Assembly: GCF_000340375.1 (NCBI RefSeq)
Contig: NZ_KB446646.1
Location: 342,301 to 406,300, forward strand
DNA length: 64,000 nt
Reading direction: 5' to 3'
DNA from: Eggerthia catenaformis OT 569 = DSM 20559
GTDB lineage: Bacteria > Bacillota_I > Bacilli_A > Erysipelotrichales > Coprobacillaceae
Under the pieces are notes generated by a model that worked only from the letters and a program-made list of their open reading frames with translations, searched no databases and had not been told where the DNA came from. Both the position numbers and the translations under genes were made by a program. Shown piece after piece: positions 1 to 2,196 of this stretch; position 1 is the stretch's first letter, and each line of letters starts with the position of its first letter.

Positions 1-491
1 GCATCATAGGTAGTATACTCATCGCTTGTATAGCTTGTTTTTCTTGTTTTATTGAATAATAGGCAATAATAGTAGTAAGAGTAGTTGCTGTAAGGGATAT
101 TCTCTACTCTAAAGTGTACTTTGTTTCCTTTCTGCTCGACAGAGAACTTCCCATATACTGCATAGTAATCAAAGGTATTGCGACCAAAAAGCTGAGGATT
201 ATCTTCTTTCCAAACCTGTTGATCTAGTGACTGATCTGTTGTCCATCCAAGGAAAATAACACCTTTCTTCTCCAATACAGGATGTGTAAGAGCACTATCA
301 TAAACTCCTAATTTTTTTGAATTGTTGAAGTGATAATCTTTTACAACTTTACCGCCATTGAGATGATAACGCAGTGTCTGCTTGCGATTTTTGTGAGAAA
401 GAGTCACTGTATACACCTCATCCTTTACTTTCTCTTTGGAGCATCCACAGAGAAGTGAAAGAATAATTAAGCTTAATAATATCTTTTTCAT
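1..491 (-). CDS. Lipoprotein with Listeria-Bacteroides-type repeat (3' end outside window)
   Basis: Open reading frame that starts at 491 and runs off the left edge, so only about 163 N-terminal residues are visible. The start is set by an AAGGAGG site a few bases upstream. The N-terminus is a lipoprotein signal (MKKILLSLIILSLLCGC) with Cys17 as the likely lipidated residue. Residues about 35-85 (YHLNGGKVV, then GVIFLGWTTD) match the pattern of the Listeria-Bacteroides (Flg_new, InlB B-) repeat, a small beta-rich module common in Gram-positive surface proteins. A Tyr-rich stretch follows. It lies 17 bases downstream of the helveticin-like gene on the same strand and may be co-transcribed with it. 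The function is unknown; a membrane-anchored surface protein is the safe reading. Confidence 0.8.
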   Translation of the reverse strand, partial: MKKILLSLIILSLLCGCSKEKVKDEVYTVTLSHKNRKQTLRYHLNGGKVVKDYHFNNSKKLGVYDSALTHPVLEKKGVIFLGWTTDQSLDQQVWKEDNPQLFGRNTFDYYAVYGKFSVEQKGNKVHFRVENIPYSNYSYYYYCLLFNKTRKTSYTSDEYTTYD

Positions 492-507: not shown

Positions 508-2196
508 TTAATCTTTAATAAGTGCATTTCTATCAACTCTGCAAATATACTGTACTGTCTTTGTATGAACCGGACCATGGCGAAGGATATTATCAGTTTC
601 AACAAGTAATATTCTTATAAAATTACCACTTTTCGGTAGGCTAGGGGCTTCCATTTTCATCTTATCATTATAAAAGTTTTGTTTTATATGTCTGTCAGTA
701 CAGAATCTTCCACTACTTTCATATCTTTTGATTCCTAGGAAATGTTCAGCTTTATTCAATGGTAATGCACTATTTTGCTTATCTTCATCACCTAATGTCC
801 AGTAAATAGAAAAGAGTCCATTTGATTGCTTGTTTGATAATTCTATACCTTGACTTCTAGATAATGTATAGTCACCTTTCTTTGATGAGAATGATTGAAT
901 ACTTTTTATCTTGGTATTATGATGAAAAGTAGCTGTCTTATAGCCTTTACTTAATCTTGTATCTAATTCATTATTAACGGCTTTAAAATCATGAATTGTA
1001 CATTCAACCGCAGTTGTTGGATTGTTCTTCTTTTCTCTTCTTTTCCAGATAAGCAGATAATTTCTATCAGTAGAGAGAGCACCATCAGCACGTGATATTT
1101 TGCCAAAATCATCATAACCATTTTTAGAATCACATAAATACGTCAGGCGAGGGATATTCTCTCTTTTTATTGTTTTACCGGGCTGATATTCTACACGACC
1201 TAGCTGAGTTCCCCATTCAGCTGTATTATCTGTTGTATTTAGATCAACTAGGAAGTAAGTTTTTCCTTTATGATCAAAAAGTTCTAATGTTTGTCCATGA
1301 CCACCACCAATAATTTTCATTGATGATTCATAGGTAGCCTCTGTATCAGCTTTGTTTTTAATAAGTCTATGAATGTAGACGTTATAAATATTTCCAATCT
1401 TTTTTAAATTAGTAACATAAATATATTTACTGCCTACATGGTAGGCTTGAATCACCGGACTCTTTCTTACGGATTTTTTCCAGTATTCATCTTTTTTTAG
1501 ATAAATACAAGGATTATTTGGGTGATCCAACCTTAATGTATATTCAGGATTATTTATGACATAGTCACGTGCTTTCCATCTGATTCTTCTAGGTGTTTTT
1601 GGAGCTTTTTTAGTTTTTTCCTTTTCTTTACGTAAAAGTTTTTCATAAATAAGTCTTTCTTCACTGCCTAGAGTATCAATACCGTCTCTAACATCAAAAT
1701 CATCTAATGTTAAAGAGTTTTCTGCTTCTTTAGGAGTTTGTACTTCATCCGCTTCATATCCTGAATAATTTTCTATAGATTGAATCGAAGATATGAAGTT
1801 TTTAATGTCTTCTTGAATAAGCTCTTCATATTTAAATGAAAAGCTATGAGACTCTTTTTGTTTCCATACTTTATTCCATTGTTCAGAATTTCTTATCACA
1901 AGACCGTTATGGGGTGTATCAGCAATCGCAAAGGCATCATGAATAGAATCAGGATTTTTCTTACACTTTATTCTATAGGATATATTCTCTAAATTTTTAT
2001 TAGAAATATTTGTTAGAGTAAAAGTAAATATTGTATGATTATCTTCATACTTTTTTGAAATTGTAAATTCACATAATTTATCTTCACTCTGTCCTTTATG
2101 TATTTGATGATTATCAGTATTTACTATTATTGTTGAAGAGAGCAGAAGGGAAAGAGTAACAGATATAGAAGTGATTATTGAAATTATCTTCCTTAT
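508..2196 (-). CDS. Helveticin-J-like secreted protein (class III bacteriocin family), apparent ATA start
   Basis: The C-terminal two thirds resemble helveticin J of lactobacilli in order and wording: VGSKYIYVTNLKK, GGGHGQTLELF, a GRVEY...IPRLTYL block, then SRADGALSTDRNYLLIW and TIHDFKAVNNELD. Helveticin J is a large heat-labile bacteriocin; the action of this homologue is unproven. The first standard in-frame start is GTG at 1899 (463 residues), but the frame is open 99 codons further up and encodes a full secretion signal (MRKIISIITSISVTLSLLL...) starting at ATA 2194-2196, seven bases after AAAAGGAG. No ATG, GTG or TTG lies in frame in that stretch. I therefore extend the gene to 2196 (562 residues). 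An ATG-to-ATA mutation or a base error is the alternative. The segment before the helveticin region is beta-rich and then Lys/Glu-rich, of unknown role. Confidence 0.75.
   Translation of the reverse strand: MRKIISIITSISVTLSLLLSSTIIVNTDNHQIHKGQSEDKLCEFTISKKYEDNHTIFTFTLTNISNKNLENISYRIKCKKNPDSIHDAFAIADTPHNGLVIRNSEQWNKVWKQKESHSFSFKYEELIQEDIKNFISSIQSIENYSGYEADEVQTPKEAENSLTLDDFDVRDGIDTLGSEERLIYEKLLRKEKEKTKKAPKTPRRIRWKARDYVINNPEYTLRLDHPNNPCIYLKKDEYWKKSVRKSPVIQAYHVGSKYIYVTNLKKIGNIYNVYIHRLIKNKADTEATYESSMKIIGGGHGQTLELFDHKGKTYFLVDLNTTDNTAEWGTQLGRVEYQPGKTIKRENIPRLTYLCDSKNGYDDFGKISRADGALSTDRNYLLIWKRREKKNNPTTAVECTIHDFKAVNNELDTRLSKGYKTATFHHNTKIKSIQSFSSKKGDYTLSRSQGIELSNKQSNGLFSIYWTLGDEDKQNSALPLNKAEHFLGIKRYESSGRFCTDRHIKQNFYNDKMKMEAPSLPKSGNFIRILLVETDNILRHGPVHTKTVQYICRVDRNALIKD

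Follow-up and report, generated by a model that had tools for sequence, protein, structure and literature searches.

Initiation at AUA codons is documented in Staphylococcus aureus, where ribosome profiling and reporters have demonstrated it for infC and ccpN and, in the NCTC 8325 lineage, for citZ; when preceded by a strong extended Shine–Dalgarno sequence, such starts give about 10% of the output of an ATG reporter, rising to 30% for ccpN in rich medium (PMC13009471). In Listeria monocytogenes, a change of the rsbW start codon from ATG to ATA, seen in derivatives obtained by acid selection as well as in two natural strains, lowers translation but does not abolish it (PMC13068326). For the helveticins, a 2021 review listed the mechanism of immunity as undescribed (PMC8538875), while an immunity function has been demonstrated for the TspA/TsaI and EsaD/EsaG pairs of S. 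aureus, which are built around type VII secretion substrates (PMC9484751).

Here we describe a locus in a 64,000-nucleotide stretch of the Eggerthia catenaformis OT 569 genome (hereafter the window). The stretch lies on contig C1, one of 8 in the 1.94-Mb assembly (100% complete, 0.2% contamination). The features discussed below all lie on the minus strand of the window:

508–2196, minus: helveticin-like secreted protein gene, 562 amino acids, ATA to TAA (frame read and homology)
2194–2196, minus: ATA at the initiation position (no in-frame standard start above the GTG at 1899)
2204–2211, minus: Shine–Dalgarno AAAAGGAG, followed by T, with a 7-nt spacer to the ATA
1897–1899, minus: GTG, first in-frame standard start, lacking a Shine–Dalgarno sequence; the likely gene-finder call
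2122–2196, minus: basic-hydrophobic N-terminal segment, residues 1–25, signal peptide or membrane anchor by hydropathy
1492–2121, minus: lineage-specific N-terminal domain and charged linker, residues 26–235, with no detected relatives
508–1491, minus: helveticin-like domain, residues 236–562, a predicted β-propeller (alignment and predicted structure)
2201–2245, minus: 14-codon upstream open reading frame (ORF), ATG to TAA, in another frame, ending between the Shine–Dalgarno sequence and the ATA
2220–2269, minus: 5′ leader hairpin with a 12-bp stem, leaving the Shine–Dalgarno sequence and the ATA unpaired in the predicted fold
2280–2288, minus: extended −10-like element TGATATAAT, identified by eye and absent from the consensus scan list
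1–491, minus: lipoprotein gene with a Flg_new-like repeat (sequence and domain match), the first of three tandem copies, running off the window

A direct read of the frame places the ATA (2196–2194) in frame with the helveticin-like gene and seven bases 3′ of AAAAGGAG (2211–2204). The frame is closed upstream by a TGA at 2232–2230, and none of the 11 codons between this stop and the ATA is ATG, GTG or TTG, confirming the coordinates, frame, spacing and lack of an in-frame standard start above the GTG that had been reported in a first-pass annotation of this DNA. The window contains 49 frames of 200 codons or more; the helveticin-like frame runs for 110 codons before its first standard start (GTG 1899, codon 100), the next longest such run is 22 codons, and the median is 5. 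Upstream of GTG 1899, the 99 codons from the ATA contain no stop in frame, versus 9 and 16 in the two other frames, and their GC content falls to 0.16 at third positions from 0.32 at positions 1 and 2; base shuffles of the same stretch stay open in about 1 in 10,000 cases. The long open stretch is thus not due to chance, and its codons carry a coding signature. A Shine–Dalgarno sequence is absent from all four in-frame standard starts within the first 320 codons, and the ATA is the only start in the frame that has one at a working distance. With a strong, well-spaced Shine–Dalgarno sequence and no usable standard start, the ATA is well supported as the initiation position, in line with the earlier proposal, and translation would be expected to begin there. 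A gene finder restricted to standard starts would return a truncated cytoplasmic protein beginning at codon 100, as had also been anticipated, and the case illustrates how secreted proteins could be misannotated as cytoplasmic.

The leader AAAAGGAGT upstream of the ATA fits the extended Shine–Dalgarno pattern AGGNGT (PMC13009471), with AGGAGT formed by AAAAGGAG and the T that follows it. This motif is not special to the locus, since 12 of the 47 Shine–Dalgarno-preceded frames in the window, about a quarter, share it. The predicted stability of the leader hairpin does not exceed that of shuffled sequences (z = −1.1), a search for RNA families in the leader gave a single match at E 0.63, far under its threshold, and a search of the leader DNA against its own genome for repeated elements returned, besides itself, just short, weak matches. 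Elsewhere in the genome, infC (L044, about 1498–2061, minus strand) has a probable ATC start after GGAGGTGGCTTTT; a non-standard start is typical of infC elsewhere and ordinary for that gene, so all that it shows is that non-standard starts exist in this genome.

The encoded protein has one strongly hydrophobic stretch, residues 1–25 (Kyte–Doolittle 2.11; best elsewhere 0.52). The signal peptide proposed in the first-pass annotation therefore stands as a hydrophobic N-terminus but has to be softened, because no clear A-X-A cleavage site is present there and the stretch might instead stay uncleaved and anchor the protein in the membrane. Searches of Pfam and NCBIfam gave no match for the protein, the gathering score of PF17312 not being reached. 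Translated searches with tblastn recovered plasmid-borne genes annotated as bacteriocins of the helveticin J family (best three, E 1e-13 to 2e-6), two plasmid homologues match PF17312 at 97–124 bits, and an hhalign comparison of a C-terminal-domain profile built from 10 homologues with a Lactobacillus crispatus helveticin reached 99.8% probability (E 2e-29). Homology to annotated helveticins extends across the propeller domain, and the GHGQT and QG motifs are common to the window protein and the ten homologues of the alignment (A3). By sequence, the protein is a divergent helveticin homologue, which bears out the original helveticin-like assignment; any antibacterial activity is putative and follows from this homology.

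Named homologues include those of Lentilactobacillus, Paenibacillus and Eubacterium uniforme. Judged by eye, the E. uniforme homologue (L026) combines a signal-peptide-like N-terminus, a lysine-rich linker and a helveticin domain, and three Paenibacillus homologues (L024, L025 and L027) also have signal-peptide-like N-termini, suggesting that a secreted version is not unusual outside the lactobacilli. The Lentilactobacillus diolivorans homologue (L033 3989–4732, plus strand) has no in-frame standard start above the match and is possibly another 5′-damaged copy.

Structure prediction for the helveticin-like domain gave a pLDDT of 73 and a pTM of 0.79 (pLDDT 31 when folded without an alignment). 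The best structural matches of the predicted domain are the receptor-binding proteins of the staphylococcal phages phi11 and 80alpha (E 1.5e-9 to 5e-8; TM-score 0.54–0.56), one of the Paenibacillus homologues gave a match to the Pfam family of phage five-bladed propellers, and a sequence search of solved structures with the window protein gave nothing useful. From these phage receptor-binding matches to a predicted model, a propeller that binds surface glycopolymers can reasonably be inferred.

The same genome holds two further helveticin-like copies on contig C1, both broken relics. The relic at C1:19302–19808 (L007) retains a Shine–Dalgarno sequence and ATG, after which the frame is lost and residues 380–562 alone remain; that at C1:196517–196729 (L008) likewise begins with a Shine–Dalgarno sequence and ATG and then preserves residues 308–332 in one frame and 483–559 in another. 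The window gene, by comparison, shows no internal stop, frameshift or deletion in its 562 codons, and its conserved motifs are intact. It is the last full-length member of a decaying three-copy helveticin-like family whose other members are being lost within the same genome. The same locus was not found among 60 relatives, in the family, in the class, in a phylum sample, in viral contigs and phages or in genome-contig scans, which also gave no close relative; the genus-level comparison consisted of the window's own genome alone. Two marginal, short class-level matches (E 0.007–0.008) were treated as chance.

Lipoprotein genes carrying Flg_new-like repeats lie directly behind every helveticin-like copy, on the same strand. 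The relics have a single such gene each, and the window gene has a tandem array of three (L006 5662–7794, minus strand; window 1–491). All five genes of this lipoprotein family lie directly downstream of a helveticin-like copy, across all three loci, and a whole-genome search with one of the lipoproteins found none elsewhere. One further Flg_new match, a weak one on contig C4, was set aside as part of a different protein, which by eye looks like a polysaccharide deacetylase. In the window, the Shine–Dalgarno sequence of the first lipoprotein gene shares bases with the helveticin-like stop codon, which suggests that the two genes share one message. The outer tandem copies, A and C, are 92.6% identical in nucleotide sequence with a dN/dS of about 0.2–0.3 over a comparison of 163 codons, part of both copies being masked; the ratio points to purifying selection on the lipoprotein, and the identity suggests that the array grew fairly recently. 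The lipoprotein near the first relic, close to C1:19830 (L007 9830–10531, plus strand), carries a tyrosine at the lipobox cysteine position (LLPGY), which may have cost it lipidation and adds to the signs of decay at that locus. The lipoprotein at the other relic (L008 7653–9491, minus strand), of 612 amino acids, matches BspA-type leucine-rich repeats and Flg_new weakly and appears to contain an internal duplication.

We propose that the ATA derives from a recently weakened standard start in the last intact copy of this decaying family and permits low, leaky translation, an account to which we assign a probability of roughly 0.6. The standard start would have become ATA most simply by a single transition, while the other two copies would have been deleted and frameshifted internally with their Shine–Dalgarno sequences and ATG codons retained. 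Transcription of the operon would probably persist thanks to the lipoprotein genes that it also carries, which would remain useful, and the strong, correctly spaced Shine–Dalgarno sequence would help the ATA, so that a small fraction of normal translation probably passes. Of the two readings offered in the first-pass annotation, recent loss of the start is favoured because the other two genomic copies are broken relics, and an ATA selected to limit toxicity finds no support of its own, none of the relatives searched carrying the gene. We infer the direction and age of the base change from this single strain.

That the gene is instead a complete pseudogene, with no initiation at the ATA, no protein and the lipoproteins alone of consequence, is unlikely. 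The destruction of two of the three copies and the lack of any alternative Shine–Dalgarno-supported in-frame start would fit such an outcome, but S. aureus reporters that combine ATA with a strong Shine–Dalgarno sequence reach about 10–30% of the ATG level (PMC13009471), and expression from ATA is detectable in Listeria (PMC13068326). The reduced but real translation from these published starts makes leaky expression likelier than silence, and the earlier description of the gene as secretion-less or silent was probably too strong. The 562 codons free of internal stops and frameshifts also argue against complete inactivity; if the gene is a pseudogene, its undamaged body means that it arose very recently or that some selection still acts on it.

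Similarly doubtful is the idea that selection has long maintained the ATA as a weak start to limit the output of a bacteriocin harmful to its own producer, in the way that ATA acts in S. aureus ccpN and infC. The ideally spaced Shine–Dalgarno sequence of strong, extended type, the intact 562-codon frame and the probable non-standard infC start of the same genome would all suit selection. Against it, no searched relative carries the gene in which conservation of the ATA could be seen, the sister copies are relics that point to decay, and the extended motif is shared with many other starts in the window.

That the assembly conceals a true standard start at the ATA position, through a base error or a mixed culture, is very unlikely given its near-completeness, although one wrong base would be enough. 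Substitution errors are rare in assemblies of such quality, and a miscount in the neighbouring A run could not by itself create a standard start there. A homopolymer miscount, with the upstream ORF truly continuous with the main frame, was also placed low, because the existing Shine–Dalgarno sequence already points at the ATA. Entry of translation from the 14-codon upstream ORF, by re-initiation at the ATA or by frameshifting into the main frame, is highly improbable: its TAA (2203–2201) does lie only 4 nt before the ATA, between the Shine–Dalgarno sequence and the ATA, but its own AAAGGAG abuts its ATG without a spacer, so that poor initiation is expected, inspection by eye revealed no recognised slippery motif ahead of its stop, and the main Shine–Dalgarno sequence has good spacing of its own and stays unpaired in the predicted fold. 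The ORF is probably incidental.

In three places, then, members of one lipoprotein family absent from the rest of the genome come directly after a helveticin-like gene, whether that gene is whole or broken. The lipoproteins are probably immunity or surface partners of the helveticin-like protein. Linkage at all three loci and the lack of any unlinked family member would fit a toxin–immunity locus, with protection as a candidate role of the lipoproteins. We tentatively suggest, as a possibility short of an even chance, that the helveticin-like protein and the lipoproteins form a bacteriocin–immunity module, in which surface lipoproteins, retained and tandemly duplicated while the toxin copies decayed or were weakened by the ATA, would protect the cell from helveticin-type propellers. 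The ATA adds one more case to a documented route, the loss or weakening of a start codon; the linked lipoproteins are the more useful lead, a concrete candidate, amenable to testing, for the so far undescribed protection against helveticin-type bacteriocins.

Set beside the described systems, the C-terminal 330 residues of the window protein align over nearly the whole domain of the helveticin J family (PF17312) of Lactobacillus and Lentilactobacillus, but at about 23–29% identity and below a PF17312 match, and the gene adds an N-terminal hydrophobic segment, a further domain, a linker and a downstream lipoprotein operon. The closest structure to its predicted domain is the propeller of the phi11/80alpha receptor-binding protein (PDB 5EFV and 6V8I), from which it differs in a TM-score of just 0.54–0.56 of the query, about 15% identity and a non-phage setting. 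Like infC, ccpN and citZ of S. aureus, the gene combines an ATA with a strong Shine–Dalgarno sequence fitting AGGNGT, whereas its ATA start is read from the DNA alone and lies within a decaying gene family. As in the Listeria rsbW mutants (PMC13068326), the exchange of one base in the start codon would lower expression, although the parental allele is known for rsbW and the ancestral base is deduced here. As at the TspA/TsaI and EsaD/EsaG loci (PMC9484751), (candidate) immunity genes are tandemly duplicated, those of E. catenaformis being candidates recognised purely by sequence, and the TspA locus, where a fragment of a toxin gene lies beside immunity genes, resembles the relic loci, where the candidate immunity genes would have outlived the toxin.
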